NCBI GenBank assembly: GCA_021234155.1
Contig: JAJEKV010000026.1
Coordinates: 18,158,617-18,222,616, forward strand
DNA: 64,000 nt
Reading direction: 5' to 3'
From: Isoetes taiwanensis
Taxonomy: Eukaryota > Streptophyta > Lycopodiopsida > Isoetales > Isoetaceae
The notes below the pieces were generated by a model. The model searched no databases and was not told the DNA's origin. It saw nothing but the letters and a program-made list of their open reading frames with translations. The stretch's first letter is position 1, and every line of letters starts with the position of its first letter. Of this stretch, positions 15,346 to 64,000 are shown in pieces. Position numbers and translations under genes: made by a program.

Positions 15346-15393
15346 ATGGTTTAGATATTGCAATAGTAATTACATTCTATAGAATGATATGAT

Positions 15394-17850: not shown

Positions 17851-17904
17851 AAAAAGTAGTGACTAGAAATCTCCATAGAGATATGGCCGAGAGTACAAAG
17901 TACA

Positions 17905-18138: not shown

Positions 18139-18149
18139 TTCACTATGCA

Positions 18150-18400: not shown

Positions 18401-18409
18401 CCCATCAAG

Positions 18410-41075: not shown

Positions 41076-41103
41076 TGCCAGAGCCACATCTACCTAAGAA
41101 TGA

Positions 41104-41406
41104 GAAGAAAGGTGGACTTGGACCCCATTACCTAGTCCTCTCCACGCGAAGGTGGAGCCGAATTTGCCCTTTGAACAAGCCACTACAATTTTATTTTAAA
41201 CCTAAAAAATAACAAGTGGAACTGGAAGTGGACTTGAACCCGGGTACGTGGTCCTCTCCACTCTAGGTGGAGCCGACCGTGCCCTTGAACAAGCCACTCA
41301 TTAACCGCGGGAAACATTTATGATTGTAGTGAAAGTGGACTTGAACCGCCGTACATGGTCCTCCCCACTCTAGGTGGAGCCACTCGCGCCCTTGAACAAG
41401 CCACTC
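41104..41406. repeat. three ~73-bp imperfect palindromes (array 1)
   Basis: Each unit starts (A)AGTGGACTTG(A/G)ACC, has an inner hairpin CTCCACTCTAGGTGGAG and ends CCCTTGAACAAGCCACT. Units start near 41111, 41228 and 41334; a decayed fourth half-unit lies at 41030-41090. The same three units are conserved at 51955-52240. On the minus strand each contains GGGTTCAAGTCC, identical to a tRNA B-box, but the T-stem does not pair. They are probably subterminal protein-binding repeats of the transposon. Confidence 0.65.
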
Positions 41407-41910
41407 CATCAATTTTTTTAACCTACTTAAAACTATAAAAATAAAATGCAAGTCGATCAACTACTTACCAAAAGAAGGACGCTGCGGTACAAGATCCCGC
41501 CGGGTCCAAATCGTAATAGAAAGTTGCAACAGAAGTAACAAAGCATTAGGGTAATTTTTTGTTAGTGGTACACAAAAAAGCATGTCGCGACATTGGTGCT
41601 GGCGTGGTGCTTTTTGCCCTTCATCGAATTTCTTCATGCCCGTCACCTATTTTTTCAAGGCGCCGTCCGCGGTTCTTTGACACCCCGCCAATTTCCTTCC
41701 CATCATCCTGAATCCGTTGATCGCCAGCCATCTCGGCAATCCTAATCCTCAAGCCATCTCATCAATCCATCTCATCGATCCCTAATTTGATGCCGGAGAA
41801 TCATGGCTTCAATTTTGAGTCGGTTGAAAGATTGGCGGGCAATTGAGATAGAATGGGCGGGCTTCCACGCTTTATCTTGTTTCGTAATTGATGTGCTTTC
41901 TTTTTACTGA

Positions 41911-43770
41911 ATTTACCATGAATTGGGAGGAAAGATTTCTCCAATGCGCTTCAAGCATAGTGTCACTTTTGATGCTAAAGATTTCATAAGCGTGATCCTA
42001 ATTTGGAACAAAGAATCGGAGGAAATTTTATGCTTATACTCCCGTCTGGCAGATAATTTTCTCCAGTCAGTTCAAAATTGTCCTGTTGTGGAGAATGCAG
42101 ATAATTCTTTTCTTCCTGCTGGCGAAAGAACTGCAAATAGTGAGGGGGAATTTATTTTCACTTCTTATAATGGTAATATCTTGAATTACTGATCAATTGC
42201 TTGCAAATTATGATAGCTAACAAGTTAACCTCATTTTTCGATGAAGGTGAGGCCAATAGTCAATTCGGACCAAATGCAGACAATTGGAATCTTGTTTTTG
42301 GTGAAAGTACTGGAAATTGTGAAGAGGATTTTCGATTGAACACTCAGTCTCATGTTTGTGATGCTACCACTGATGCAGAGCCACCAAAGACATCCAATTT
42401 TGAAACAAACTGTGATGGTTTTGAAGCATTTTGTGATCTACCTACAAATTCTGGTAAGTGCTTGAAAACTGCTTTTAAATGTTAAACAGTCTTGAAATAC
42501 TAGTTTGCTAATTGTTTTAAAGGTGGTGTTGAGGTCCAGCATGAACATGGGTTTGAAGATCAGGAATCACTCTATAGAAAATTGCATGCAATGAAAAGGA
42601 GAGAACAAAGAGCAAAGAAAAGAGCAAGAGAAGCAGACTTACAGAAAGATGTCTCCAGCAGTGGACTAAGCAAGAGAAGAAAACAACAAATTTCAAAAAA
42701 AATAGCATTGTATAATAATAAGGTATGTGCAAATGCTTCACAACAAGACAGGGAAGACATTCTTGAAGGTGCTGCTAAAAGACTGCCAGAATACCAGGTA
42801 TTGAAATTGAAAGAAGTGAAAACAATGTCAACAATAGTGGAAAATTTGAGAAAATCTTTGGCTCAACATAAGTATGATAGGAAAACTGATGTGGTCAGAG
42901 CTCGAACCTCAGCAATGGTTTATGCTGTTGCCTCAGAGAAAACCAATCAGAAGGCTATCCCCGAATGTTTGAATTTGAACAGAAAATATGTTACAACAGC
43001 AGTACATAGAAGAGCAGCAGCAGAAATTGGTGAAGGTCCCTGGTCAATGTTTAAGAGACAAACCAGATGTGACAAACTCACTAATCAACAGCAAAAGCTT
43101 GTGGTTGAGTTCTGGACCAATAATTCAAGAGTGTCTCCATGCAAGAAGCATGTGATTAAAATTAGGATTGCCAAAGGCAATAAAATATTGCATCCTCTAC
43201 ATTTTTTGGAAGAGACTGAGGTTGGTTTATCTAATTTCCTTTTTTTTTTTTTTTTTTTTAAATTTACCATGCCTACAATGCTTATGGTTTTAATGCAGGT
43301 TTCATTTTATGAAAGATTTCGAAGAGAGTTTCCAAAATTCGAGGTGTCTTTCTCAGCTTTTCATGCACTGAAACCTAGCTTTGTAAGGAAAGTAAAGGAC
43401 AGGGAGACATGCTGCTGTGTATATCACATGAGGTTGGATTATGTTAGACAAGCAATTAACAAAATGAGGTTGGACACAAAGATTCATGGAAGTGAATGTA
43501 ATTGTACATGTGTTGTTTGTGGTCCTGGCCTTAAATGTGAAGCCAACTTGAAGACATACAAGTCATCAAGTGACATGTGGAGGTCATTGGTTTGTGTCAA
43601 AGATATAGCAGATGAGTGGTATCAACATAATTGCATGCTATTGAAATGCAATTCTTGTGGTCCTTCCAAATTGCCTATGTGTCCAAAGGAGTTGAATAGA
43701 GGTGCTTTGGTCACACAGCTTGATTGGAAGACATTTGATAGAGTAAACCCTTTGCATTATCTACTTTAAT
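41911..43770 (+). pseudogene. transposase-like gene, 5' part with three introns
   Basis: Exons: ~41911-42172 (FKHSVTFDAKDFISVILIWN), 42247-42453, 42523-43220 and 43299-43769. Introns 42173-42246, 42454-42522 and 43221-43298 have GT...AG ends and join in frame. Exon 3 starts with a strongly basic helix (KRREQRAKKRAREADLQKD, likely nuclear/DNA binding). Exon 4 carries Cys pairs (DRETCCCVYHMRLDYVRQAI; NCTCVVCGPGLKC) like the zinc-binding part of the eukaryotic DFSENY-containing transposase-like family. The true start is uncertain: the first ATG in frame is 41941. The frame is lost after 43769. Confidence 0.6.
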
Positions 43771-45750
43771 CTCATTGCTGTATTGGAGAATCTTTCATAC
43801 TCATTACTAAAAGAGTTTTATGTAAAATTACTGTGTTTTTGAAGCATCTACCTAACCCGATGGAACTGGAGCTTTGAAAGTAGTACCAAAACCAATAGTT
43901 AAGCTCGCTTACAAGAAGTAAAGTACTAATCACTGATATTTTGGAGTATGCTAAGAATGTATTGACAGATTTTATTCCTCACAATTATGAAGCCAGATGG
44001 CAGGCTAAATGTTTTTTAGGGATTGCTTAGCCACTTTTCCAAAAGACACCTGTTGTATCAAGAATAGACTTTCCGAGAATTACACATTCAAAATACAGCA
44101 AGAGATCCAAAGTTTGCATTGGAGGAATGATCAATGCACAATACCGGGTGCACATCACATACGTGCATGCAAATCTCAAGCAGAGGTTCAAGAAAATTGT
44201 CTAAGTAAGTGTGGAGAGGAACATCATCAAAGAGACACACTTTTATGTCTCGGATGACGTAGAGAACATGATACTCTTTGTTCAACATTGTCTTAATAAG
44301 CATGCTAAGTTTCTAGGCCGTAAAAGTGTGGATTACACCAACCATGTGATGTGGTCTGATGGTTGCTCACATCAATTCAAGGGTGCAAGAACATTTTTCT
44401 TCATTGGTAGATTTTTAAGACCTCTGAATTATTCCAATTAACTCGAATTACTTTGCCTCTTACCATGGAAAAGGTATGCCAAAGACTCCAGATTTACTTC
44501 AATTGTATGTCTCCAAAGTAAGCTTCTTTTTTGTTTGTAGGTGAACATGATGGGGTGGGGGCGTGATTAAAAGAGCACTCACACATGAAATGTTAAAGAG
44601 GAATTCTAGACCTTTAAGAGATGCTCATGATGTTGTCATATTTTGCCAGGAACACTTCAGTAATTCTGACAAGCACAGGTAAATATTGTGTTCATACTTA
44701 TATTTGTAAGCACCATTTATGAACTCATTTATTTGGCTGCAGATTCTTTTGGGAAATAGGCAAAGACGATGTGTGCAGGGATGAATTGTTTGAGTGTGCT
44801 ACTTTGGTAGGATCTAGCAAATTCCATAGCATTAGACCAGTCAACAACAAGGACCCTACTATGGTTGCACACATGAATTATTCCTGCTTCTGCCACCACT
44901 GTTGGTCTGCTAAGTACAGCAAGTGTATTAATAAAGAAAGAATAGGATCATGGGTTTTTTCAGAATTAAGGCCAGGAATCGAGGAGGAAATAGAAGCTTG
45001 TGATGGGCGGTGTAGGTATGAAGGTGATGCCGAGTGGAAGTCCGACATCATAGACATTGAGAGAATTTTTATTGTTGTTGCTCCAGCCAGACAATAAGGA
45101 GAAAGTTGATTTTACATTCTCAAATGTACTCGACACAAAGCATGTTGTTGAAAAAAAGCTTTCAAGGATCCCCGGGGACAGAAGTTTGGTAGGAGAGAAG
45201 TTGTAGTAATCGGTAAGTTTTATAAGTTTGTAGGTGATAATAAGTATGAACTTCTAAGACATGAACCGGATCAGTAATGTGTACGATCATTTGGTTGTAT
45301 CATGCAACTTCTGATGGAAGATATGGGAGGTAACATGTATGAGTTACAAGAGGAGGTCCATGAGCACATTCTAGAAAGTTTGCAAGCTCAATCTTCAATT
45401 CTAGCCCGTCTGTGATGCAAAGAAATAACAATAAGCTAGCGGGAGCAACAACCAAGGCCAATTCAAGAAAAGCAAAGAAAGTTGAAAAAGGAAAAACCAA
45501 GAAATGCAAAGAAAAAACAAAGCAGACAAGAAAGATGTTTGTAGGAAATTCAACAAAGCGGGGTTGCAAGCAAGGTCGGTGGTAAGGCAAGCAAGAAAAA
45601 TAGTGAAACAAGAATTAAAAAAAAATAGCAAGAAAGCCAGGACAGCAGAAAACCAAGAAAAAAAGATGTTGCAAAAGTCGAGTAAAGTTGTTGCAAACAA
45701 AACAACTACTAAGAATGGCAAGAACATTCTAAAAGGAAAAAGTTGATGAA
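43771..45750 (+). pseudogene. transposase-like gene, 3' part, frameshifted
   Basis: Pieces in changing frames include DILEYAKNVLTDFIPHNYEA (about 43940), a DFSENY-type motif reduced to LSENYTFKIQQEIQSLHW (44065-44125; one T lost upstream), VMWSDGCSHQFKGARTFFF (44346-44405, the Asp-containing second core motif) and, after an intron-like gap, WVFSELRPGIEEEIEACDG (44950-45010). 45420-45746 encodes a Lys-rich tail. The layout matches one RNase H-like protein, inactivated by indels. Confidence 0.55.
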
Positions 45751-46685
45751 TTAACATTCAGCACAATGCAAGCAGTGATGTATACAAATCAATTCATTCA
45801 ATATACACATTCTTTAAAACCTGCAGCTTTTAGAGTTGTGTTTATTTTGGCAAAAAATTACCCATTCAACACAAATCTAATTATACATTATTTAAAATCC
45901 ATCAAACCATTTGATTTGTGTTAAACTTGCAACAAGAAAAAGGAATGCAGAATAAACAATTCACATTAGGAATAAAACTTAAACTTTCTTTGTATTACAA
46001 AAACGCCCATGTGTGAGGAGTACATTACAAAATGCATTATGTGTATAACATTAGCATCATAAATATTAATGCCGGGTATAACAACAAAGCTCTTTCACCG
46101 ATCAAGAGCAAACTCATTCATCCGCTTGGTAGCGTGAGCCCCGATACTTCTTCAATTCAGCAAGCCAACCTACTTGGTCAAGTGTTATGTCAGTGTTTGG
46201 AATCACATCCTCTTCAAAGTTGCTTCCTCATCCTTATTAACACCTTTTCCATCATTTTGTGGAAACAACCTCAAAAACAAAACAAAAACTCAATTTCGTG
46301 GAAAGAAGTATAAAAGGAAACAAATATATTGTTAAAAAGGTTTTTAACCTTTTCTTGGACTAACATCCTTCATTTCATTGTTGTTTTGTGGACCAAATCC
46401 TGCTCAACCTTTATTTGCCACTATAAAAGATAAAAAGGAATAGATTAAAAAATAATACATCACTTATCCAAAGACCTAGTAACACTTTTACCTTCCTTAG
46501 CAGCCTGCATGTTCAAATCTGGTGCATCATTCTTCTTTGCTTTTTGAAGAGGAAGCATAGTGAGTCATCTTGATCGACCTGGAGCTTGTCCACATCAATA
46601 AGATCAACTGGGCGAAAACACCAAAAAAAAACATCATCAAAAAAGAAAAATAACACATGTAACAATTATAAATTCATTATACCTG
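45751..46685. other. noncoding gap between the convergent genes
   Basis: AT-rich with no supported ORF. Probable 3' ends of both convergent genes lie here, but no polyadenylation signal stands out among the many AATAAA-like words. Confidence 0.4.
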
Positions 46686-46687
46686 TA

Positions 46688-47000
46688 TCACATCTTCTCA
46701 TCTTTTTGTAGCACTTCCGAAAGTACCAATGGTCCTCTTCCCAGCCTTCCTAATAGGTAAAAAATCTTCATCAATTTTTTACCTCTCCTTGCGCTTCCAA
46801 GACTATCTTCAAATTTCCTGGTTTTTTTCACTATCTGTTTCTTGGGAGTTGTATCTTCAATTTCCTCATCTTCTTCAAATTCCTCATCACCATCCTCCTC
46901 TTCAGCATCAGCATCTTCTTCACTCTCTACCGCCGCCGTGATCGCTTTGTATCCCAGCTTTTTTAAAAGTGCTTGAGGCACTTCAAGACCACGATTCTCG
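46688..47000 (-). pseudogene. C-terminal acidic exon of the convergent gene
   Basis: The minus-strand frame begins PQALLKKLGYKAITAAVESE, is followed by a Glu/Asp run of about 25 residues and a basic C-terminus (KKQIVKKTRKFEDSLGSARR). Acidic-then-basic tails are typical of nuclear DNA-binding accessory proteins. The gene upstream on the same strand is at 47166-47996. Confidence 0.4.
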
Positions 47001-47165
47001 AACTATGCATGCCAGAGTTTCCAAAGACTATACTAAAGCAATACACATGATACTTGTGCTGGCAAAGAAAGCTTAACATGCATTTCATAATCAGTAGCAA
47101 GCACCAAACCCACCACGACATTGCATACCTCGTCATGCATTAGAGGAATGTGGTACTCCCCATGG

Positions 47166-47996
47166 TTACTCCTCGACATGCCTTTTGGACTTCACATGCT
47201 GCTGCATGAACTGCACATTTTTACAACACTTGTGCCAGTACTCCATTTTCTCTTGATACCTTGCAACATCCATCTTCAGCTTCTCAATCTCCTTTTGGAG
47301 TGCAAAATGCTGGGTTCTGTCGACTTTGGCAAGCGACCTCTCCAGCATTTCCCTTAACAACTTCTCGTCCCTTTTAAGGGTCTCGATGCATTTCTTTATG
47401 TCATCATCCGGTTCTATATGTGCTTCCATTGCTGTCCAAAGATTGTTTTTTATCCTCAATAGCTTCCAGCAGGATAACAATTTTTGTCGAAGACCTTGTA
47501 CAAAGACCTTCGAAATTCTCAACAGATCCTCTTGTTTCTTCAGTATGTTCATTTCATCAATTTGTTTGAGCTCGTTCAAGCTGTTTATGACATGCAGAAT
47601 GGCCTCTATGCTTTTATTGAAATAAGACCCATCATTTCTTGACCTCTTGTCCATTGAATCTCTCAGAAGCCCGAGCTGCAAACGGCCCAATTCACCTTGT
47701 ATTTCTCCTCGATTAAGACGAAGCTTTTAACAGTGTTTTGCCACACAAAGGCATTGAGAAAGCCGAGTCCTACACTCATTGTTGGTGAGGCCCCTTTGAT
47801 ATATCTTGGAAATCGATCTTTTAGCTTGGTGGCATAATCGCTTTCGAACCATTTTGACATGAATCTTCCCTTTAACCAAAGGGGCTTTCCATATCTCATT
47901 CCAATCACGGAGAAACATCTTTCCACTTAATTTCTTTCGGCTTTGTGCCAAGACTACATAAATCTCGCAATGAAACAAACTCACCTCCGAAAGCAA
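47166..47996 (-). pseudogene. coiled-coil protein of the transposon-like unit
   Basis: Overlapping minus frames give, in order, FLRDWNEIWKAPLVKG (about 47915), KWFESDYATKLKDRFPRYIK and GASPTMSVGLGFLNAFVWQN (47850-47735), then from 47690 a 174-codon helical region with heptad character (LNELKQIDEMNILKKQEDLL; LQKEIEKLKMDVARYQEKME). A coiled coil following a W/Y-rich motif resembles the accessory (TNPA/Transposase_24-like) proteins of plant CACTA elements, but the match is only in style. At least one frameshift (about 47870) is present. Confidence 0.45.
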
Positions 47997-47999
47997 TTT

Positions 48000-48500
48000 T
48001 CATCTCAATCAAAAGGAAAAAATAATCGGTTTCATAACAGAAAAAAAACAGTCTTCAAAGCTAATTCACAGGGCTTACCTCCTTAACTTCGCTTTGCCAT
48101 GGCCTTACAAACAAAGTAATTTAAGAAATCGGGTGTAATCGAGAAGATGAAATAGCGCTTCTTAAGAGGAACAGAGATATCGGGCTTTTCAAGAATACAC
48201 CAAAAGGGGTCGAATTTGAGATCAAACGGCTCGGTCTACTTAATGAATTCCTGATTGTGGGATGAATTATATGTCAATTCACTAGATCATACTCATTTCT
48301 TTTGATAATTGGCATGATGGGATTCAGACGCCTTTTCTACCAAAGACTTCATTACACACATCCCGACTTCATAGACCATCATGAACCCTTCAACTTGGCA
48401 CCCTTCACTTCTTCATTTCGCCCACCGAAAAAAGCGCTAAAAAAAGGTGCTGGAGACGTGCTAAAATTTTGTTTTTTTGTATACCACTAATATAAACATA
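48000..48500. other. noncoding leader region of the convergent gene
   Basis: No supported gene. The sequence becomes A-rich toward 48470, where the polypurine tract begins. Confidence 0.35.
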
Positions 48501-48504
48501 CCCA

Positions 48505-49295
48505 TTAGAAGAATAAGAACAAAGAAGAAAAAGATCGAAGAAGAAAGAAAGGAAAAAAAGGGGGGGATAGAAAACAAGAGATAGAAATAAAACAAGAGAA
48601 AGAAATAAGAGAATACAAAGGAAGAAATAAGGATAGAATAGAGAAGAAATAAGAGAAAGAATGAAGAAAAATAAGAGGAAATAAGAGAAGGGAAGGGAAT
48701 AGAATGGAAGGAAGAAATAAGGGAAGGGAAAGAAAAGGATCCAATGGAAAGTGAGGAAGAAATGTGAAGAATAAGAAACAAATGAAGAATGAAGAAATGA
48801 AATTAAAAAGAATGAAGAATAAGAAATGAAAAAAATGAAGAATAAGGAAGGGAAGAGAAGAAAGAAATGAAGGAAGGGAGGGGAAAGAATGAGGAATGAG
48901 AAAGCATGAGAAAGAATGGAAATGAGAAACAAATGAGAAAGCATGAGAAAGAAATGAGAAAGAAATGAGAAAGCATAAGAAAGAAATGAGAAAGCAAGAA
49001 ATGAGAAAGAATGAGGAAGAATGAGAAAGAGTGAGGAATAAAGAATGAGAAAGCATGAGGAAGAAAGAAATGAGAAAGAATGAGGAAGAAAGAACGAGAA
49101 AGATGAGAAAGAAATGAGGAAAGAAGAAATATGGGAAGAAAGAATGAGGAAAGAATGAAGCATGGAGAAGGAGGAAGAATGAGGAAGAAATGAAGCATGA
49201 GGAAGAAAGAAGGAGGAAGAATGAATGAGGCATGGAAGAATGGGAAGAAAAAAAATCAAGAACAAAGAAGAAGAGGAAGGAAAGGAAACCAAAAA
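48505..49295. repeat. ~790-bp polypurine tract
   Basis: The plus strand is almost entirely A and G, in variants of GAAGAAATGAGAAAGAATGAG. Long minus-strand ORFs over it (Ser/Phe/Leu only) are translation artefacts of the pyrimidine strand. A shorter homologous tract lies at 52375-52700. Such tracts can form triplex (H-DNA) and are slippage-prone. Confidence 0.9.
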
Positions 49296-49299
49296 AAGA

Positions 49300-49690
49300 G
49301 GAAGGTTGGGCATGCACCATTCAATCCAAAAAACCTATTCAATCTAAAAAACATGATATACTAACCTTAGAATAGTTGCTTGCAGGTAGATCAGGGTACT
49401 AGCGCCGCGGATCGCCCAAGAACCTCGAAGAAGTAGGGGAAAAAAAAGTTAGGGAAAAGCCGGCGCCCAGCTGGTTCAAAATTACGAGCGTCAAGATAAA
49501 TGCGCCACGTCGCATGCGACGTTATTTCAAACCGTGATAAATAGGTTTTATGTCGCATGCTTCCATGCGAATTTTTTGTTATAGCGACGTTATTTTTGCA
49601 TCTTTTTTAATGTGATGCTCATTAAAGTTTGTCCCTAGGCTTATTTGAACAGTCCCGAGGCATGCATGCAAATAATCACATTCGGATTCT
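49300..49690. repeat. right-end region shared with 52700-53165
   Basis: CATTCAATCCAAAAAACC, ATGAT.TACTAACCTTA, GCTTGCA and TTTTGTTATAGCGACGT are shared in order with 52715-53060, then CATGAAAGTTTGTCCTT-like and AATCACATTC words follow in both. 49500-49580 has GCATGCGACG palindromes. It probably includes the right end of the transposon family. Confidence 0.6.
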
Positions 49691-49786
49691 ATTACTACCA
49701 AATAAAAATTTTGGTGGCCTAAATATATCTACCGAACGTGAAGTTGGTTTTCCTAAATATCGCCATGAAAAGAACAATTATTTGTA

Positions 49787-50969
49787 TGAGCGAAGTCGAA
49801 TCGCCAAGTCCTCGGGACTACGCCTCGAGACGCTTTTACGATTTGACAGATCTCCCCGAGCAGTCCGTTGAACAAGGGCATTATCTCTATCCATATGCCT
49901 TGATAATCGAAACACAAACCATCATCACAAGCAATCAAATCTAAATCCCCCAACCCCAACCCGTCTTTTGCTTTTCTCAGAATCATTTATCTTCATTCTA
50001 GTAGTTATGATGCTTTTCTCAGAATCATTTATCTTCATTCTAATAGTTATGATGCTTATATTCTCAATGCAATCTTAGACCAAGTATAACGCCCAAATGA
50101 GCCAAGGTCAACCCCAAGTACAAACGATCCCACAAACTCCATTCCTTTGACCTTAGCTAACCCTTTGACCTAGACCTTCTCCGAAAATTCCCAAAATTGG
50201 GCTATGTGGGCCGAGATGAATTAGAATTCAAATGGCAAAAATCAGAATTTATTTTCAGAAATGCATTAATTACTTAATTTATGAATGTCTTGCCCACTTT
50301 GCAAAAGCGCCCGACTTCTACTTTTGCCACATCGGAGGAGGACAGGCTCCAAACTCCCGCCCGTCGGCCCCCTTGTTCAGATTCTCGGCGCAAACTTCTG
50401 CCCAGTCCCAAGCGTAACAGACCAAGTCTCGCCCCCAAAACGCGAACCCTTCTAGAACCTCGCAACCCACGTGGTTTTACGTTTTTGAGGCCCTCTCCTT
50501 TGTCGATTCGACCGGGACCTTGCGCGTGACTTGACGTGGGAGTGGGGGTGTTGACGCCTTGAGCACGGACCCTAAAATCCCCCTGGTCGCTGCCCCGAAT
50601 TTCCCTCTCCCCAAGGCCTCTGGGATCCGACGGGCGACCTCCCCTCTGAATCACGATTTGGCTCGCTTAATGGACTCTAACGTCGACATTGCCCTAGGGA
50701 CCAAGTTCCGGGCCGGGAAGACCAAAACTCGCCCCCCAAACGCAAAAACCCTTCTATAACCCGACAACTCCGTGGTTTTACATTTTCGAGGCCTTCTCCT
50801 TGTCGATTTGGTCGACCTTGCGCCGCGTCTTGACGTGGAGTGGGGGTGTTGACGCGAGGCGGGACCCTAAAATCCCCCCTGGTTGCTTGCCCGAATTCCG
50901 CCCATTACAAGTTAATTATGCCATCCATGTCAAATAGCTTTAGGAGCAAAACCGCTGAACAAGGGCATT
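49787..50969. repeat. 1.1-kb satellite, subfamily B, left block
   Basis: The block starts with GCGAAGTCGAATCGCC and contains the spacer AACAAGGGCATTATCTCTAT, two ~40-bp repeats (TCATTTATCTTCATTCTA.TAGTTATGATGC), GCTAACCCTTTGACCTAGAC, the anchor TTTATGAATGTCTTGCC (about 50278) and GACTTGACGTGGGAGTGGGG. The wording is subfamily B, as in 57.8-64 kb. It ends where the CACTA-like element starts. No gene: the ORFs are chance frames in GC-rich sequence. Confidence 0.75.
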
Positions 50970-51299
50970 CACAACAAGAAAAAGGGTCATTTAGCGACGT
51001 CTATAGCGATGAATCGAACGACGCCTATGCGACGCCCGACGGCGTCGCCGCATTTACGCCTCCAATACGACGTTGCGCATTATCGCCGCGATCGCGACGC
51101 ATCCGTGGCGTCGACGTCGACTTCGCCGGCGCCGTGGCAAACGTGGACTCGTGATGCGGACTTCGACCGCCGGCGTCGCTCAGAGCGTGGACGCCGCGCC
51201 GCACGGCGTGGGTGGACCAAAAAAAAAAAAAAAAAAAAAAAATTAAAAAAAAATTTAAAAAAAAAAAAAAAGGAAAGAATTTTAATAGTTAGTTACAAT

Positions 51300-51900
51300 A
51301 TCATATAAGAAGAGGCGCTTAGTAGTGGCTATCTTTACGGTTCCCCGTTAGGGGAAAACCCGTGATAGCCAATTCTATAACAATACGACCAATATTAGAC
51401 AATGACATTGAAAAGTTAACGTGAACTAAGAGTTTATAGCACTTACTTAATCTATTTCGGCCGCCAACCCAAGTGAGACTAATTGCTTTTGCTTGAAGTT
51501 GCCTTGGCGAAACGGGTGAGGCGTGATTTTTCTTGGAATCCTTTGCACGCTCGAAAGTGATCCGATTGCAAGGAATACAACATGACAAGTTAAATGTCTT
51601 ATTTCTCGAATTGAACGAATGGCAACAAATAACAAATACCTTGATATCTTCCTTATGGACATTAATGGTTTAGGGACCTTTGACCAATCGCCTCCCAATT
51701 TTTGGGCATTCGACTTCAATTTTGCAATCACTTTTGCCTTTTCTATAAATCGATAGATTAACACAAAACAAAAGAATAAAAATAAGACTATGACTAGGTC
51801 ATGTACCTTCTTTTTGAAGCAGCCCCCATCATCTAAAATGAGCCCCTTCCAAATCCGGATTAGTCGGATTAAAAGCTAGAGTTGGCTAACATACGCTTTT
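51300..51900 (-). pseudogene. coding-like relic inside the CACTA-like element
   Basis: The minus strand has KAKVIAKLKSNAQKLGGDWS then KVPKPLMSIRKI (51740-51640), and FKQKQLVSLGLAAEID and ERAKDSKKNHASP in neighbouring frames (51590-51440). They look like short exons of an accessory transposon protein. An inverted GTTCCCC...GGGGAAAACC lies at 51340-51362. No family is assigned. Confidence 0.25.
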
Positions 51901-51954
51901 AGGGTTATAAGCTTGTGATTTGGCCACCTCTACCTAAGAATTACAAGAAAAGTC

Positions 51955-52240
51955 GACTTGGACCCAAACACCTAGTCGTCTCCACTCGTGAGTGGAGCCT
52001 ACCGCGCTCCCTTGAACAAGCCACTACTGCCATTTTATTTTAAACCTAAAAATAACAAGTGGTCAGTGGACTTGAACCCTGCACGTGGCCCTCTCCACTC
52101 TAGGTGGAGCCTACCGCCGTCTTTGAACAAGCCACTCCTTAACCTAGGAAAAATATATGATCGTGAGTGAAGTGGACTTGACACGGTACATGGTCCCTCC
52201 CCACTCTAGGTGGAGCCGACCCGCGCCCTTGAACAAAGCC
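51955..52240. repeat. three ~73-bp imperfect palindromes (array 2)
   Basis: The same order and spacing as at 41104-41406: units near 51955, 52060 and 52168 begin GT(C/G)GACTTG and end GAACAA(A)GCCACT, with the inner CTCCACTCTAGGTGGAG hairpin kept in units 2 and 3. Conservation in two diverged copies argues that the units matter to the element. Confidence 0.65.
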
Positions 52241-52374
52241 ACTCCATCAATTTTTTTTAACCTGCTTAAAATTATAAAAATAAAATGCAAGCGTGATCAA
52301 CTTACCAAAAGAAGGACGTGTGTAACAAGATCCTGAGGGTCCAAATCGAAATAGAAAGCAACAAAGAGTTAGAA

Positions 52375-52700
52375 GAATAAGAACAACGGAAAAAAAAGAA
52401 AAAAAAAAAAAAAAAAGATGAAGAAATAGTAAAAAAAGAAAGAAAAAAAATGAATGAATAAAAGAAGAAGAGAAGGGTGGAGAAAGAAGAGAAGGGGAAA
52501 GAGGAGAAAAAAAAATTAGGGAAGAAAGAGAAGAATGGAAGAAATAAGAGAATGAAATGGAAGAAGATAGAAGAATGGAAGAATGGAAGAATGGAAGAGT
52601 GAAATAAGGGAAGAATCGAAGAAAGAAATGAGGAAAGAAGGAAAAAGAAGAAGAATGCAGAAACAAGAAGAAGAAAAAGAAGGAAAGAGATAGAAAAAAA
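52375..52700. repeat. polypurine tract, short copy
   Basis: Plus-strand A/G-only sequence (AGAAGAATGGAAGAA variants), homologous in position to 48505-49295. The minus-strand Ser/Phe ORF is an artefact. Confidence 0.85.
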
Positions 52701-52924
52701 AATTTGAAATCTACACTAAATCATTCAATCCAAAAAACCATTCAATCCAAAAAGCATGATCTACTAACCTTAAAAAGAGTGCTTGCAAGTCGCTCAAGGT
52801 CAGAAGCGCCAAGATCGCCCAAAATAGTCGATAGAAGGAAGCCTAGGAATGGTCCCTAAAAGACGGCCATTGTGGATCAAAAAACACGGCCACGACGTCA
52901 CGCGACGTCAAGATAAGTAATTTT

Positions 52925-53005
52925 TTGAATCAGATATACGATTTTGAAATCGATATACGATTTTCAAAATCGTATATACGATTTCAAAATCGTGATATAT
53001 AACGT
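52925..53005. repeat. ATATACGATTTTGAAATCG tandem palindromes
   Basis: Four to five overlapping copies of (AT)ATACGATTT(T/C)AAAATCG form consecutive palindromes just before GTCGCGATGCGACGG. The corresponding place at 49500-49560 has GCATGCGACG palindromes instead. Confidence 0.6.
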
Positions 53006-53234
53006 CGCGATGCGACGGTCCGCTGACGATATTTTGTTATAGCGACGTCTAACACTTTTTAATTTTTTGGTGCCTTTTTTTCATCTGATGGTCATGAAAG
53101 TTTGTCCTTATGCTAATTTGGACATTCCCGAGCCATATATGCAGTCAAAATCACATTCTGGATTTAACCAATCTTCTATTGCTACTACTTACGAATGTTT
53201 GAGCCCTGGGGTGGCATGTTTGAGCCCAGGGTGG

Positions 53235-56200
53235 CGGTTTGATAAGTTCTCCTGACGATGTTGGATTTTTTGGCCCTTATCGAACGAGGGCCCTTGAACG
53301 AAGGATTCAAATCTCGGATAGGGGAACCGAGATCCTGGAGTGTGGTCTTTAGCGCCGCGTGGCCCCCGCCGCCAGAAAGGCTGCCTCTGGGAAACTTTTT
53401 GGGGCTCGCCTCTTGGGTTCGGACTCTCCCTCTAATGAGACCGGCCTTGCAAGGTCCTGGCCTTGTTTGACTTTGGGCAAGTGTGCAAAGCTACCGTGCA
53501 AACGCCCAACAACAGTGCCGTTTCGGACCGCTCTAATGCAAACACTTTGATCTAAACCTTGTCCGAAATTTTGAAAACCGCATGTATGTTGGCGATAACT
53601 TTAGGAAGCCTCCGCACAAAAAAATCAGAATTTAATTCCGTACTATGCATTAATTACGAATTTATGAATGTCTTGCTACCGCAAAAAGTCGCCTTTTACT
53701 TAACCGCCACAACGGGAGGAGTACAGATCCAAACTCCATTCCGGCCAGGCCTCTTGCTTCTCTCTCAACCGTATCTTATCTACCAAGTCCCAAGTAAAGG
53801 ACTGTAAACTCGGCAAGACCCAAAACGCAAACCCCCGCTAGAACCCTCGCAACTCATAGGGTTTACGCTTCGAGGCTCTACCTTGTCGATTCGACTAGGA
53901 CCTTTGCGCCGGTCTTGACGTGAGGGGGTGTTGACGCGAGCACGGACCCTAAAACCATCCGAAGGCGCTTTGCCCCCAAAAGTCCTCTCCCGGCTCCCCG
54001 GGCGACGGACGGGCAACTTCCCCTCCTCCCATCGTGATTCGCTCGCCAATGGACTTAACGCCGACATTGCTCTAGGGACCAAGTTTAATGGCCAAAAGAC
54101 CACCCCTCTCGAGGTAGCGGCCAAACTATCTCATGTCCAACACACTTCGTAGTCAATTGGCCTAGGAGCCGGCACCGGCCGGTCAATCGCAAACGTAGGG
54201 CGTAAGTGTTTTTCTTTCTTTGCAAAACCGACCGCGGCAACTTGGTCTCTAGGGTAACTTCGCCTCCCTAACGATGTGGCGAAGTCGAATCGCCATTCCG
54301 AGTTCCGCAATGTCCGAACGACAAAACACTTTGGTTTCTACACGGCCGACCGCTAGACGCTTTCGGGTTTGATAAGTTCTCACCGGACGGATGTTGGATT
54401 TTTTTTTTGACCTTATCGGTGATGGGCCCTTTGAACGGGCGGATTCAACGGCCGGATAGGGGAACCGAGATCCGGAGTGTGGTCTTTAGCGTCATCGGCC
54501 CCCGGGAGCCGCCTGCCAGAAAGGTCGCCTCGAAACTTTTTGGGGCTCGCCTCCCCGGGTCCGGACTCTCCCTCTAATGAGGTGGCCTTGCAAGGTCTGG
54601 CCTTATTTGACTTGGGCAAGTGTGCTTTTCGGGCGCCCAACAACAGCTGCCCTGACCGTTCTAATGCAAACACTTTGATCTAAACCTTGTCCGGAAATTT
54701 TGAAAACTGGCCTCAGTATGTTGGCGATGACTTAGGAAGCCTCCGCCGACAAAAAAATCAGAATTTAATTCCATACTATGCATTAATTACGAATTTATGA
54801 ATGTCTTGCTACCGCAAAAGTCGCCTTTACTTAACCGCCACAACGGAGGAGTACGTATCCAAAATCCATTCCGCCGCCAGCCCTTTGCTTCGCGCTCTCA
54901 ATCGCATCTTATCAGCCAAGTCCCAAGTGCAAAGGACCAAAACTCGGCACCCAAAACGCAAACCCCTCGCTAGAACCCGCAACTCATGGGTTTATGTTTC
55001 GAGGGCTCTATCCTTGTCGATTCGACTAGGACCTTGCGCCGCGGTCTTGACGTAGAGGGGGTGTTGACGCCGAGCACACGGACCCTAAAACCATCCGGAA
55101 GCAGCTTTGCCCCAAAAGTCCTCTCCCGGCGGCCCCGGTGACGGACGCAACTTCCCTCTCCCGAATCATGATTCGGCTCGCCAATGGACTCTAACGCCGA
55201 CGCTGCCCCTGGGACCAAGTTTCATGGCCAAAAGACCACCCCTTCGAGGTAGGCGTCAAACTATCTCATGTCCAACACACTCGTAGTCAATTGGCCCTAG
55301 GAGGTGGTCACCGAATCACCGCAACGTAGGGCGTAAGTGTTTCTTTCTTTTGCAAAACTGACCGCAACTTGGTCTCTAGGGTAATTTCGCCTCCCTAAGA
55401 TGTGCGGCGGTTGAATCGCCATTCCGGAGCCTCCGCGAATGTCCGAACGACAAAACACTTTGGTTTCTACACCTGGCCGACCGCGGGGACGCTTCGGTTT
55501 GATAAGTTCTCACGGACGGATGTTGGATTTTTTGACCTTATCGAGACAAAATTCCTTGAACGGAAGGATTCAACGGCGGATAGGGGAACCGAGATCCGGA
55601 GTGTGGTCTTTAGCGCACGGCCCCCCGGGAGCCGCCTCCTGAAAGGCCTCGGAAACTTTTTTGGGGCTCGCCTCCCGGGGTCCTGACTCTCCCTCTAATG
55701 AGGTGGCCTTGCAAGGTCCGGCCTTATTTGACTTGGGCAAGTGTGCCGCCTCACCGCCCAACAACAGTCGCCCCTGACCGCTCTAATGCAAACACTTTGA
55801 TCTAAACCTTGTCCTAAAAATTTTGAAAACTAGCTTGTATGTTGGCGATGACTTAGGAAGCCCTCACCGACAAAAAATCAGAATTTAATTCCATACTATG
55901 CATTAATTACGAATTTATGAATGTCTTGCTACTACAAAAGCCGCCCTTTACTTAACGCCACAACGGGAGGAGTACAGATCCAAACTCCATTCCGCCGGGC
56001 CCCTTGCTTCGCGTTCTCAACGCATCTTATCGGCCAAGTCCCAAGTGCAAAGGACCAAAACTTCGCACCAAAACGCAAACCCCGCTAGAACCCGCAACTC
56101 ATGGGGTTTACGCTTTGGAGGCTCTATCCTTGTCGATTCTCGACTAGGACCTTGCGCCGTGTCTTGACGTAGGGGGGGTGTTGATGCCAGAGCACGGACC

Positions 56201-57210
56201 CTAAAACCATCCGAAGCAGCCTTGCCCAAAAGTCCTCTCCCCGGCCCCCGGCAACGGGGCGGGCAACTTCCCTCTCGGAATCATGATTCGCTCGCCAATG
56301 GACTCGGAACGCCGACATTGCCCCGGGATCAAGTTTCATGGCTTAAAAGACCACCCCTTCTCGAGGTAGCGCCAAACTATCTCATGTCCAACACACTCGT
56401 AGTCAATTGGCCTAGGAGGTGGTACCGCCGAATCACCGCAACGTGGGGCGTGTCAGTGTTTCTTTCTTTTTTGCAAAACCGACCGTGCAACTTGGTCTCT
56501 AGGGTAATTTCGGCCCTCGACGATGTGGCGAAAGTCGAATCGCCATTCCGAGCCTCCGCGCAATGTCCTAACAACAAAACACTTTGGTTTCTACACCTGG
56601 CCGGCCAGACGCCAGCGGTTTGATAAGTTCTCCTGACGGATATTGGATTTTTGGACCTTATCGAGCCGTGGCCCTTGAACGGCGGATTCAACGGCTTGAT
56701 AGGGGAACCGAGATCCCGGGAGTGGGTCTTTAGCGCACGACCCTCCCGGGAGCGCAAGGAAAGGTCGCCTCTGAAACTTTTTGTGGCTCGCCTCTTGGGG
56801 TTCGACTCTCCCTCTAATGAGGCGGCCTTTGCAAGGTCCTGGCCTTGTTTGACTTGGGCAAGTGTGCCAGCTCTACGCCCAACAACAGCCGCCTTGACCG
56901 CATTTTAATGCAAACACTTTGATCTAAACCTTGTCCGGAAATTTTGAAAACCGGCATGTAATGCTATTGGCGACTTAAAAAGCTCACGACAAAAATCAGA
57001 ATTTAATTCCTTACTATGCATTAATTACGAATTTATGAATGTCTTTGCTACTTGCCTAACAACAGTCGCCTAGACCGCTCCAATGCTACCTATTTGATCG
57101 AACTTTATCCGAAATTCTAAAAATTTGCCTCAGTATGCTGGGGATGACATAGGAAGCCAACCGACAAAAAATCAGAATTTAATTCCATACCATGCATTAA
57201 TTACGAATTT
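53235..57210. repeat. 1.1-kb satellite, subfamily A, inside the CACTA-like element
   Basis: The anchor ATGAATGTCTTGC occurs at 53664, 54797, 55917 and 57035, i.e. 1,133, 1,120 and 1,118 bp apart. Subfamily A wording: GCAAACACTTTGATCTAAAC, GCAACTCATGGGGTTTACG, TTACTTAACCGCCACAACGG. The last unit is cut short after a partial second anchor (57211). Monomers differ mostly by 1-8-base indels in G/C runs. No transcript-type signal (5S, snRNA) is recognised. Confidence 0.85.
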
Positions 57211-57821
57211 ATGAAGCATGAATGCAAAAGAACGATAACTAAAAAAATTCTCGTGATCGAAAAAGGTGGAATTTTGACAAGCGGTTACGCGTGCGGTCAT
57301 GGACATGAGAAAACATTTCACTAGGATATGCAGTGTTGGTGCACGATGAAATAGCTCGAAGTCTTCCGTAGCTCACATGTCGCCACAAAAGTTCTCTTTA
57401 ATGAAGGCCCCGGCGATGGACGAAGCAATTTCCCCTCTCCAAAACCATGATTTGGCTCTTCCAATGGACCTCGTATTATCGACATTACCCCGGGGACCAA
57501 CTTTCGCGGGCCGAAGACCACCCTTGTTCTCCAAAAGAACAAAGTACACTAGACGCCCGCCAGACGTCCCGCCGACGACGTCACGTCGCCGCGACGCGAC
57601 GCCACGCCGCACAAAAGTGACGCGACGCTGCGATGCGACGTGGTGCACTGGCGCGTGATTGATCTCCGCCACGTCATTTGTCGACGTCGCGACCATTGAC
57701 GCCGCATGCGACGTATGCGCGCGTGACGCCGCATTGACGCCGCATGGTCGCACGTATTTGCGACGCCACGCCGCACGGGCGCCGCAAGCCCACGCCGCTA
57801 AATGTCCATTCTCTTGTTGTG

Positions 57822-60800
57822 ATTCTCTCTATTCATATGCCTTGATACCTGAAACACAACCATCATCACAAGCAACCAAATCTAAAACCCCCCTCCCCCC
57901 CAACCCGCAGTAGTCTTTTTGCTTTTCGTAAATCATTTATCTTCATTCTAGTAGTTATGATGCTTTTCAGAATCATTTATCTTCATTCTAATAGTTATGA
58001 TGCTTATATTCTCAATGCAATCTTAGACCAAGTATAACGCCCAAATGAGCCAAGGTCAACCCCAAGTACAACGATCCCACAAACTCCATTCCTTTGACCT
58101 TAGCTAACCCTTTGACCTAGACCTTCTCCTAAAATTTTCGAAAATTGGGTTGTAGGCTTTGGAGATGGATTAGGAATCGGTGGGCAAAAAAATCGAAATT
58201 TATTTTAAAACAATGCATTAATTGCCAATTTATGAATGTCTTGCCATCAAAAAAGCCCAATTACATCGGAGGAAGATGCACCAAACCCCTCGCTCCGTCA
58301 GTTCCTTGCTCAGTATTCTCCGGCCGCGGCTTCTTACCCGATTCCAAGTGCAACGGACCAAGTCTACCCGCCCCCAAAACGCCAAACCCTTCTAGAACCC
58401 GCAACCCACCGGGGTTTACGTTTTGGAGGCTCTCTCCCTTGTCGGTTCAAAGGGACCTTTAGCCAGTGACTTGGCGATGGAATGGGGGTGTGACGGCAGA
58501 GCACTAACCCTAAAATCCCCCTAAGCCGCCATCCCGGCCTCTCTCCCAAGGCCCTCGGGGCTGACGCGCGACCTCCTCTCGAATCGCTGATTTGGCTCGC
58601 CAATGGACTCGAACGCCGACATTGCCCCAGGGGACCAAGTTCCTTGGCGAGAAGACAACCCGACCTCCAAGAAGCGCCAAAGTAGCTCACTTCCATCACA
58701 CTCGTAGTCAATTGGCCTAGGATGTGGATCTTGGGGATAATTGTCGTGGGAGGGTGGAGTGTTTCTTTCTTTTGCAAAACCGACCTTGTAACTTGCCCTA
58801 GGTAATTTCGCCATTCCTCGACGATTTGGCGGGTCGACCGCCATTCAGAGCCTCCCCTGCGTGCCCGACGACAAGACACTGCGGTTTCTACAAGGTCAAT
58901 CCTCGGGCGCCCAGGTTTGACAAGTTCTCCTGACCGATCACGGAATCTTTTGGGCCTTCCCAAAGGGGCCCCCGAATCGGAGGATCCAACGGCCGGATAG
59001 GGGCAGGGCTCCGGAGGGTGGTCATTAGCGTCTGACCCGGGGGGCGCCGCCCCAGAAGGGCTACCTCGAACTTTTTTCGATCCCGCCTCTTGGGGTCCGG
59101 ACTCTCCCCTCTTGTGAGGGATCCCCCCCAAGGTCCCGGCCCTCGCTTGACTTGGGGAAGGGTGCCTTGGCTTCGGTTGCCACAGCGGGCTGCCTGACCG
59201 TTCTAAATGCTAACCCTTTGACTTAGACCTTCTCCAAAAATTTCAAATTGGGGTGTCTTTGGAGATGGACTAGGAATCCACGGCAAAAAAAATCAGAATT
59301 TATTTTCGTACAATGCATTAATTGCGAATTTATGAATGTCTTGCCAATTGCAAAAGCGCCCCCCGACTTCTACTTGCCACATCGGGAGGAGGACATGCCC
59401 AAACTCACTCCGTCAGTTCTCCTTGCTCCGTATTCTACGCAGCTTCTCGGCCGGGTCCCAAGTGCAGGGACCAAGTCTCGGCCCCAAAACGCAAACCCTT
59501 CTAGAACCTGGCAACCCACAGGGTTTACGTTTTGGAGGCCCTCTCCTTGTCAGATTTGGCCGGGACCTTGCGCCGTGACTTGACGTGGAGTGGGGGTGTT
59601 GGCCTTGAGCACGGACCCTAAAATCCCCAAAGCTGCTTGCCCCGTTTCCTCTCCCCAAGGCCCCGGGGGGCGACGGCAACCTCCCTCTCCCGAAATCATG
59701 ATTTGGCTCTGCCAATGGACTCCCAAACGCCGACATTGCCACAGGGGACCAAGTTCCGCGGGCGAAGACCAAAACTTCGGCCCCAAAACATAAACCCTTC
59801 TAGAACCCGACAACTCCACAGGGGTTTACATTTCGGAGGCCCTCTCCTTGTCTCCATTTGGCCGGGACCTTGCGCCATGTCTTGACGTGGAGTGGGGGTG
59901 TTGGCCTTGAGGCGGGGACCCTAAAATCCCGGAAGTTGCTTGCCCCGAATTGGGTTCATTACAAGTTAATTATGCCATCCATGCCAAATAGCTTTAGGGA
60001 GCAATCCGTTGAACAAGGGCATTCTCTCTATCCATATGCCTTGATACTACACACAAACCATCATCACAAGCAACCAAATCTAAAACCCCCTCCCCAACCC
60101 GCTAAAGAGTCTTTTGCTTTTCTCAGAATCATTTATCTTCATTCTAGTAGTTATGATGCTTTTTATGTAATCATTTATCTTCATTCTAATAGTTATGATG
60201 CTTATATTCTCAATGCAATCTTAGACCAAGTATAACGCCCAATGAGCCAAGGTCAACCCCAAGTACAACGATCCCACAAACTCCATTCCTTTGACCTTAG
60301 CTAACCCTTTGACCTAGACCTTCTCCTCAAAATTTCAAAATTGGGTCATGTCTTTGGAGATGGATTAGGAATCCAAACGGCAAAAAATCAGAATTTATTT
60401 TCGTTACAATGCATTAATTGCGAATTTATGAATGTCTTGCCCATTGCGCAAAAAGCCCCCTAATTACATCGGGAGGAAGACATGCACCCAAACTCCGCCC
60501 GCCGGTTCCCCTTGCTTCTCAGTATTCTCCTACTGCAGCTTCGCCCAATTCCAAGTGCAACAGACCAAGTCTCGGCCCCCAAAACGCAAACCCTTCTAGA
60601 ACACCGCAACCCACGGGTTTACGTTTTGGAGGCTCTCCTTGTCGATTCGGTACGGACCTTTGCGCCGTGACTTGACGTGGAATGGGGTGTTGGCCGCCGT
60701 GAGCCACGGACCCTAAAATCCCCAGGCTGCTTTGCCCAATTTCCTCTCCCCAAAGGCCCTGGGGCCGGACCGAATACCTCCGCTCTCGGATCGCGATTGG

Positions 60801-63800
60801 CTCTGCCAATGGACTTAGAACGTCGACATTGCCATAGAGACCAAGTTCCTTGGCCGTAAGACCACCACCTCCAAGAAGCACCAAAGTAGCTCACTTCCAT
60901 CACACTCAGTAGTCAATTGGCCTAGGATGTGGATGCTGGATAATCTTGTCGTGGAGAGGCATGAGTGTTTCTTTCTTTTGCAAAACCGACCTTGTAACTT
61001 GCTCCCTAGGGTAATTTCGCCATTCCTGACGATTTGGCGGGGTCGATCTGCCATTCCGAGCCTCCCGCGTCGGCGACAAGACATGCGGTTTCTACAAGGC
61101 CGACCTCGGGGCCGCCCGCGGTTTTGACAAGTTCTCCGGACCCATCCGGAATCTTTTGGGCCTTCCCAAGAGGGGCCTCCGAATCGGAGGATCCAACGGT
61201 CGGATAGGGGACCCGGGCTCGAGAGGGTGGTCATTAGCGCAGCAAAGGGAGCGTTGCCGGAAGGGCTACCTCGAACTTTTTTTCATCCCCTCTTGGGGTC
61301 CTGGACTCTCCCCTCTTGTGAGGGATCCCTCAAGGTCCCGGCCTCGTTTGACTTTGGGAAGGGTGCCGGCTTGGTTGCCCTGCAACGGGCTGCCCCGACC
61401 GTTCTAATGCTAACCCTTTGACTTAGACCTTCTCCCAAAATTTCGAAAATTGGGTTGTGTGCTGGAGATGGACTAGGAATCCAGCTGGCAAAAAATCAGA
61501 ATTTATTTTCGTACAATGCATTAATTGCATTTTCTTTCAATTGGCCTAGGATGTGGATGTGGGATACTGTCGTGGAGGGCGTGAATGTTTCTTTCTTTTG
61601 CAAAATCGACCTTGTAACTTGCTCCCTAGGGTAATTTCACCATTCTGGACGATTTGGCAGGGTCGATCTGCCATTCGAACCTCCGATTTTTCGAGCGACA
61701 AGACACTACGGTTTACGCAAAGTGACCTCGGGGCGCCCAGCGGTTTGACAAGTTCTCCCGGACCCGATCACGGAATCTTTTGGGCCTTCCTTGAAGGGGC
61801 CCTGAATGGAGGATCCAGCGGTCGGATAGGGGAGCCGGGCTCCACCATGAGGGTGGTCGTGGCGTCTACGGCCCGGGGGGCTGCTAGGGAAGGGCTGCCT
61901 CGGGAACTTTTGGATCCCGCCTCTTGGGGTCCGGACTCTACCCTCTTGTGAGGGATCCACAAGGTCAGTCGGCCTCGTGGCCTCGTTTGACTTGGGGAAG
62001 GGTGCCGGCTCGGTTGCCACAGCAGGGCTGCCAAACCCGGCCGTAATGCTTTGACCCTAGACCTTTGACCTAGACCTTCTCCGAAAATTTGAAAATTGGG
62101 TTGTGTCTTTGGAGATGGATTAGGAATCTAGGCGGCAAAAAATCAGAATTTATTTTCGTACAATGCATTAATTGTGAATTTATGAATGTCTTGCCACCCT
62201 CGCGCCCCCCGGACTTCTACTTGCCACATGGGAGGAGGACAGGCCCAAACTTTGCTCGTCCAGTTCCCCTTGCTCCATATTCTCGGCTGCGGCTTCTCGG
62301 CCAGGTCCCAAGTGCAACAGACCAAGTCTCGCCCCCCAAAAACATAAACCCTTCTAGAACACAGCAACCCACCCGGGGTTTACGTTTTGGAGGCCCTCTC
62401 CTTGTTAGATTTGGCCGGGACCTTGCGTGCGTGACTTGGCGTGGAGTGGGGTGTTGACGCTAGAGCCACGGACCCTAAAAATCCCCGGCCGCTTGCCCAA
62501 TTTCCTCTCCCCAAGGCCACAGGGGCCCGGACCAGGCGACCTCCCTCTCCCGGGAATCGCGATTTTGCTCTGCCAATGGACTCGGAGCGTTGACATTGCC
62601 ACAGGGACCAAGTTCCGTGGCGGAAGACCACCCGACCTCAAGAAGCGACAAAGTAGCTCACTTCCATCACACTCGTAGTCAATTGGCCTAGGATGTGGAT
62701 CTGCGGGATCTTGTGTCGTGGGGGGAAGTGAGTGTTTCTTTCTTTTGCAAAACCGACCTTGTAACTTGCTCCTAGGCTAATTTACCCATTCGGACGATTT
62801 GGCGGCGGTCGATTTGCCGATACGGAGCCTCCCGGTGCGAGCGACAAGACCTTGCGGTTTCTACAAAGGCCGACCTCGGGGCGCCCCAGCGGTTTGACAA
62901 GTTCTCCGGACCGATCTGGAATCTTTTGGGCCTTCCCAGAAGAGGGGCCCTGAGCAGACGATCAGCGGTCGGATAGGGGAACCCGGACTCCGGGAGGTGG
63001 TCATTAGCGTGCAGACCCCGGGGCGCTGCCGAGGAAGGGCTGCCTCGGGAGCGTTTTGGATCCCGCCTCTTGGGAATCCGGACTCTCCCTTCTGGCCTCG
63101 TTTGGCTTGGGAAGGGTGCGGCTCCCGGTTGCCACGCAATGGGCTGCCCGACCCGTTCTAATGCTAACCCTTTGACCTAGACCTTCTCGAAAATTTGAAA
63201 ATTGAAATTTGTGTCTTTGGAGATGGATTAGGAATCAATTGGCAAAAAAATCAGAATTTATTTTAGTACAATGCATTAGTGCGAATTTATGAATGTCTTG
63301 CCAACCAAGCGCCCCCGACTTCTTTGCCACGCCGGGAGGAGGGCTGAGGCCCAAACTACGCTCCGTCGGTTCCTTACTCCGTATTCTCATTTGCGGCTTC
63401 TCGGCCCGATTCAAGTCATGAGACCAAGTCTCGGCCCCCCAAGCATAAACCTTCTAGAACACAGCAACCCCACGGGGTTTCGTTTTGGAAGCCCTCCTTG
63501 TCAGGTCGGCGGGACCTTGCGCCGTGACTTGGCGTGGAGTGGGGGTGTTGGCGCGAGCCACGGACCCTAAAATCCCGGGCGCTTGCCCCATTTCCTCTCC
63601 CAAGGCCACAGGGACCGACAGGCAACCTCCCTCTCCCGGAATCGCGATTTGGCTCTGCCAATAGACTCAGGCTTGTCGACATTGCCACAGGGACCAAGTT
63701 CCGTGCCCCGAGAGACCACCCGACCTCAAGAAGCGCCAAAGTAGCTCACTTCCATCACACTCGTAGTCAATTGGCCCTAGGATGTGGATGCGGGATACTG

Positions 63801-64000
63801 TCGTGGAGGCGTGAGTGTTTCTTTCTTTTACAAAACCGACCTTATAACTTGCTCCTAAGATAATTTCGCCATTAGGACGATTTGGCGGTCGATCGCCATT
63901 CGAGCCTCCGGTGCCCCGACGACAAGACACTGCGGTTTCTACAAAGGCCTCGGGGCGCCCAGCGGTTTGACAAGTTCTCCCCGGACCGATCTGGAAGCTT
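57822..64000. repeat. 1.1-kb satellite, subfamily B, right block
   Basis: Anchors lie at 58232, 59332, 60428, (~61528, truncated), 62182 and 63289; spacing is about 1,096-1,107 bp where regular. Subfamily B wording: GCTAACCCTTTGACCTAGAC, CAACCCACGGGGTTTACGTT, GACTTCTACTTGCCACATCG. Some monomers carry a ~330-bp block (AACAAGGGCATTCTCTCTAT...TAACGCCCAA; 57822-58130, 60000-60330), and others have TTGACTTGGGGAAGGGTGCC in its place. The array runs off the window end. ORFs here are chance frames. Confidence 0.85.

Follow-up and report, generated by a model that had tools for sequence, protein, structure and literature searches.

CACTA-like transposons with internal satellite arrays are already published (PMC8978399), as are elements that generate satellites (PMC7320549). 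In Chenopodium quinoa, a 16.5-kb CACTA-like element with a transposase gene contains 32.5 copies of a 171-bp satellite, an arrangement that has been read as capture (PMC8978399). The CACTA-like element Jozin of Chenopodium has been described as the source of the monomers of the satellite CficCl-61-40 (PMC7320549). The same account cites the Atenspm arrays of Arabidopsis and the Afa and TM-2 repeats of the Triticeae as tandem arrays that arose from internal parts or from deletion derivatives of En/Spm (CACTA) elements. Internal repeats of other DNA transposons, namely the foldback element Tetris of Drosophila virilis and Helitrons, have likewise been reported to seed satellite arrays (PMC12628747 and PMC9659126). 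Here, we analyzed a 64,000-nt window of the Isoetes taiwanensis contig JAJEKV010000026.1 (forward strand, 18,158,617–18,222,616), in which a CACTA-like element with its own satellite array (array A) is inserted with a 3-bp duplication into a spacer within a diverged array of this monomer (array B).

The Isoetes element resembles the C. quinoa element in being CACTA-like and in having a satellite array near the 3′ end; in C. quinoa, several copies carry the array, and arrays also lie near such elements (PMC8978399). In contrast to the C. quinoa element, it holds ∼3.4 copies of a ∼1.12-kb monomer, no transposase was found among its longer open reading frames, and the array outside it borders the same core that is found inside it. 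Because of this shared core, inheritance of the satellite within the element family is more likely here than capture. Whereas the CficCl-61-40 monomer stems from ∼40 bp of the tnp2 transposase domain (PMC7320549), the consensus reading frames of the Isoetes monomer contain no Pfam family above its cut-off. Atenspm, Afa, and TM-2 are alike in being arrays made from CACTA elements, a likeness drawn from their citation in PMC7320549 and not from monomer size or nesting. Tetris and Helitrons belong to other superfamilies, and Tetris comes from an insect. None of the literature matches listed (titles and abstract starts) described a CACTA copy with a satellite that sits within a sibling's array, which is not proof that such a description is absent from print. 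At this locus, the landing of one satellite in another can be read base by base from the ends, the target duplication, the empty sites, and two monomer types with two copies of the core.

A CACTA-like insertion in an array of related monomers

The element begins with CACAACAAG... and is delimited by imperfect terminal inverted repeats of 30–31 bp. Local alignment of the left end, CACAACAAGAAAAAGGGTCATTTAGCGACGT, with the reverse complement of the right end, CACAACAAGAGAATGGACATTTAGCGGCGT, yields a score of 35, which was reached by none of 5,000 random pairs of 32-mers from the window (best random score, 28). The trinucleotide ATT stands directly outside both ends as a 3-bp target-site duplication. 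Both ends also exhibit short subterminal repeats of the CACTA type in both orientations. Counted by the 6-base core GCGACG alone (published CACTA subterminal units measure 10–20 bp), these repeats occur five times in the left 250 bp and eight times in the right 282 bp, are absent in either orientation from 51220–52860, and appear once in forward and never in reverse orientation in 53236–57540. The terminal pentamer at both ends is CACAA, and we therefore classify the element as CACTA-like rather than as a strict member of the CACTA (En/Spm) superfamily. Beyond the CACAA, the terminal repeat resembles by eye published ends such as CACTAGTAGAAAAATGTACATTTGCGTC (PMC8978399).

The joined flanks of the element align across the junction with 59954–60125 and with 49856–49965, which lie in two other copies (X3 and X1) of the spacer that the element interrupts. 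In the self-comparison, 50156–50970 matches 59209–60024, and 57822–59325 matches 60021–61528. From these two uninterrupted paralogous sites and the ATT duplication, it follows that 50970–57821 is an insertion and that the spacer had been duplicated before the element arrived. The original prediction, made from the letters of this locus, had placed a CACTA-like element here, and the inverted ends, the ATT on both sides, and the two empty sites prove its limits to be exact. Array A lies within them, so that the satellite is indeed carried inside the transposon, as had been proposed. The coordinates are compiled in Table 1.

Table 1. Coordinates of the element, the arrays, and the cores in the 64,000-nt window
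Feature	Position	Strand	Remarks
CACTA-like element, whole	50970..57821	.	6,852 bp; inverted ends, ATT on both sides, two empty sites in paralogous spacer copies
Target-site duplication ATT, left copy	50967..50969	.	
Target-site duplication ATT, right copy	57822..57824	.	
Left end (inverted repeat; subterminal region rich in GCGACG)	50970..51219	+	GCGACG 3 forward/2 reverse; end alignment
Right end (inverted repeat; subterminal region rich in GCGACG)	57540..57821	-	GCGACG 6 forward/2 reverse; end alignment
Empty paralogue of the insertion site with one ATT	60021..60023	.	In spacer X3; second at 49880–49882 in X1
Array A, ∼3.4 monomers	53236..57052	+	Period 1,122–1,128 bp
Degenerate monomer head A5f, mostly A-like	57073..57215	+	9 A, 2 B, 4 other
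Degenerate monomer piece A6f of ambiguous type	57404..57520	+	4 A, 2 B, 1 other, counted on 57404–57546; BLAST match to B only
Array B, left part	49790..50966	+	Remnant B0, spacer X1, truncated B1 with 180-bp duplication, left piece of X2
Array B, right part	57825..64000	+	Rest of X2, monomers B2–B7, spacer X3; continues beyond the window
Inner core, non-coding as far as tested	51923..53164	+	Collinear with DNA left of array B
Outer core, first part	41083..41549	+	Matches 51923–52358; 41083–41523 by self-comparison, remainder by alignment
Outer core, second part	48503..49688	+	Matches ∼52369–53164; TAGCGAC at 49582; 48503–48914 unaligned
Unrelated 6,953-bp insertion splitting the outer core	41550..48502	.	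CATTAG on both sides

Spacer X is AT-rich, measures up to ∼350 bp, and is present in three copies in array B (49858–50156; 50903–50969 plus 57822–58103; 59951–60300), which are 1,092 and 2,197 bp apart once the inner element is removed. It adjoins truncated monomers with a 180-bp duplication. The copies of the spacer differ by 1.8–3.5% substitutions, as compared with ∼9% among B monomers.

A transposase was found in none of the seven stop-to-stop open reading frames (ORFs) of at least 120 amino acids that overlap the element, all of which were scanned against Pfam; errors in the form of small gaps could break reading frames. The sole Pfam match among the seven, SR-25, reaches 21.5 bits and stays below the cut-off of 40. 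The absence of a transposase is what would be expected of a non-autonomous copy.

Monomer types A and B

Head-to-tail repetition of one monomer, as in a satellite, is found both inside and outside the element. The monomer inside (type A) is ∼1.12 kb long, and full monomers outside (type B) measure 1,106–1,109 bp. The outer array extends from ∼49790 to the end of the window and is composed of full monomers, truncated monomers, and the three copies of spacer X. The exact type A word GCAAACACTTTGATCTAAAC occurs four times, always inside the element (53538, 54666, 55788, and 56910), and the exact type B word GCTAACCCTTTGACCTAGAC four times, always outside it (50156, 58103, 60300, and 63163), with one-base variants at 59209 and 61409.

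We compared the full monomers A1–A3 with B2, B4, and B6 and found 79 fixed differences between the types in 993 ungapped columns; the other nine three-to-three splits of the same six monomers give 0–3. The A|B split received an ultrafast bootstrap of 100 in both trees (9 and 14 sequences), and many of the branches on each of its two sides are weakly supported. The monomer alignment comprised 16 pieces, of which the 14-sequence tree omits A6f and B0; the two 180-bp duplicates stood outside the alignment. A FastTree analysis of a preliminary alignment with short fragments, some of which started a few bases off, gave the A clade a support of 0.57 with A6f and 0.66 without it and has been superseded. 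Counted over aligned bases only, in gap-rich alignments of three pairs each, substitutions amount to 5.9–7.5% within A, 8.5–9.4% within B (one pair being truncated copies), and 17.3–17.7% between A and B.

The original prediction had assigned subfamily A to the inside and subfamily B to the outside of the element, with a switch that coincides with the element. The exact words, the fixed differences, and the tree agree with this assignment for full monomers, whereas truncated and edge pieces are less clean. At the covered positions of the 79, the A/B/other states number 15/5/2 in A0 and 15/0/1 in A4f (for A5f and A6f, see Table 1; 57073–57215 and 57404–57520). On the B side, they number 2/2/0 in B0, 4/28/5 in B1, 2/35/0 in B3, 1/13/0 in B5h, 1/29/4 in B5t, and 0/56/1 in B7. 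The A/B switch is sharp for full monomers and blurred in the end pieces. A blurred subtype signal is usual at array edges, and the B-states at the edges of the inner array may be ancestral.

The remnant B0 aligns poorly (39–48% identity) and is supported solely by an exact 17-base match to the tail of an A monomer (score, 34). As a control, shuffles of B0 scored at most 26 against one B tail in 200 trials, and its own scores against three other monomer tails were 19–20. Farther to the right in array B, at 61528–61537, a monomer head is joined to a later monomer part, with just under half a monomer missing.

Copies of one monomer type are separated by 54–77 gap events per kb beside 5.9–9.4% substitutions, and copies of the AT-rich spacer X by 26–44 gap events per kb beside the low substitution values given above. 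This share of gaps suggests base-calling or polishing errors, and we therefore attempted no dating. The imperfect base calls also lend some weight to an assembly artefact, in which two arrays would have been wrongly joined or noise would make A and B look different. We consider such an artefact highly improbable: the ends agree to the base with the uninterrupted paralogues and carry a 3-bp duplication, so that a wrong join is unlikely, and the 79 fixed positions are common to all three copies of each type and are thus not random errors. Noise was rejected as the source of these positions, although it is likely in many of the small gaps. The observed/expected ratio of CpG is 1.03 in array A (53236–57052), 0.80 in array B, and 0.56 in 1–41000; sequencing errors that introduce extra C and G may account for the values in the arrays.

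The nature of the monomer was examined separately. None of the eight distinct monomer consensus ORFs of at least 100 amino acids, all scanned against Pfam, had a match above the cut-off; the one match, DUF6870 (E 0.19), fell under its own, and a decayed gene was rejected as the origin of the monomer. A known RNA was likewise rejected for monomer and core, no Rfam family being found at gathering level in the window. When the threshold was relaxed, a single microRNA match at chance level (E 3.7) appeared in the inner core and nothing in the outer core. An exact search with a degenerate 27-base monomer pattern returned no hit in prokaryote and virus contig collections, which is uninformative on the family.

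The core shared by the element and the left border of array B

Between its left end and array A, the element contains a core that has a counterpart to the left of array B. The pairwise alignment places inner and outer core in the same order and orientation. In the self-comparison, the matches reach 83.6% over 451 columns for 41083–41523 versus 51923–52358, 70.6% for 49037–49433 versus 52432–52837, and 80.9% for 49603–49688 versus 53076–53164. Each core stops shortly before an array starts; the purine-rich stretch is longer in the outer one.

Both cores also share short motifs with the element ends. The heptamer TAGCGAC occurs only three times in the 64 kb on both strands, at 49582 in the outer core, at 50992 in the left inverted end, and at 53040 in the inner core. 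GCGACG is found three times in 49440–49600 of the outer core and four times (three forward, one reverse) in 52861–53060 of the inner core; by comparison, the 2,050 overlapping 160-bp windows of 1–41000 contain at most one each. The cores differ from each other by 10.6% and 15.6% substitutions, near the divergence between arrays A and B, which fits a joint descent of core and array.

From the common order and orientation and from the TAGCGAC and GCGACG clusters that the cores share with the element ends, we infer that a second, older, left-truncated copy of the same element family most likely makes up the outer core and array B. The locus would then probably represent a CACTA-like family that is non-autonomous and includes a ∼1.1-kb array of its own, with one copy nested in array B of an older sibling. 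Array B would most likely have been part of the element family before A and B diverged, and the satellite looks like a long-standing part of the family rather than a free satellite that was recently captured.

Several observations weigh against this explanation. The left end of the outer copy was not found: the first ∼950 bp of the inner element have no counterpart upstream of 41083, where the sole core match is 40989–41065 versus 51923–51999 (72.5% over 80 columns), one more unit of a short repeat, besides short A-rich matches. The right end of the outer copy lies beyond the window. A relaxed end pattern matched six times in the window (0.56 expected); two of these matches are the element's own ends, and the other four are unconvincing by eye. 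Matches in the purine-rich stretch of the core occur in several registers and hence partly reflect composition, and ∼400 bp of this stretch in the outer core stayed unaligned. To these points must be added the CACAA termini, which depart from the strict CACTA criterion used in PMC8978399, the gap-rich alignments behind the substitution figures, and piece A6f, which lies inside the element and matched only type B in the self-comparison.

The unmatched first ∼950 bp and the missing outer inverted end would also suit a capture, as published for the satellite arrays of the C. quinoa element (PMC8978399). Here, the core and array B would be a satellite locus or another repeat, from which an ancestor of the inner element took the core and the start of the array, moved, and later landed back in such a locus. 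We consider this rather unlikely, as the TAGCGAC and GCGACG clusters in both cores are like those of the element ends and suggest that the core is element DNA.

A further alternative takes the target for an ordinary satellite independent of the element; the core to the left of array B would then stem from a separate, earlier insertion that lies there by chance. The outer element is not demonstrably continuous, its border from core to array B (49690–49790) is degraded, and B0 depends on its one 17-base match. The outer core nevertheless keeps the inner order and orientation and stops where an array begins, just as in the inner element, and a chance neighborhood therefore appears improbable. The original prediction had described a landing in a related array, which is correct insofar as related monomers flank the element; the array itself is probably not an independent satellite, because its left border matches the element interior.

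Under the preferred explanation of nested siblings, a common ancestor of both copies would already have possessed core and array. The copies would have diverged, with their arrays homogenized separately by unequal exchange or conversion into types A and B, and the left end of the older copy would have been lost or have diverged. The copy with array A, presumably moved by a transposase supplied in trans in view of the lack of a transposase domain in its ORFs of at least 120 amino acids, would then have landed in the B array of the other copy. An amplification of the monomers inside the transposon had also been predicted; the lower divergence within A than between A and B is compatible with it, but a homogenized inherited array would look alike.

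That the outer array adjoins a core of the element is directly relevant to the question whether the internal arrays of CACTA elements are captured or made by the elements, and the locus allows one to test the spread of satellite subfamilies by capture against their inheritance along with a transposon lineage. As a tentative extension, satellite subfamilies in this genome might be element subfamilies: a non-autonomous CACTA-like family could carry its 1.1-kb satellite through many transpositions, each lineage homogenizing its own version, and insertions into sibling arrays could seed mixed higher-order blocks. If so, the “satellite library” would be a transposon phylogeny, and nesting would bring new subfamilies into old arrays.

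As a separate observation, both cores contain about three imperfect tandem units of roughly 110–140 bp (41083–41425 and 51923–52260; unit length by eye). ARAGORN reports a tRNA-Ser (aga) on the minus strand at 41325–41407 in one unit of the outer core, without support from Rfam, and the unit is possibly a decayed tRNA-like repeat.

Other features of the window

The inner core has a single AGTTAG at the position where the outer core holds the CATTAG-flanked insertion. This insertion has short inverted ends, GGTA...TTAGTGGTAYACAAAAAA, and three of its ORFs, including one of 421 amino acids at 42504–43766, gave no Pfam match.

A retroelement of the long interspersed nuclear element (LINE) type occupies 25378–30833 on the minus strand, with endonuclease, reverse transcriptase, and zf-RVT domains in one ORF of 1,284 amino acids and an adjoining ORF of 547 amino acids. 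The region 15129–18402 features a 216-bp direct repeat (97.7%) whose copies are ∼3 kb apart, as well as further internal duplications at 15392–15716 and 16805–17142 (92%).

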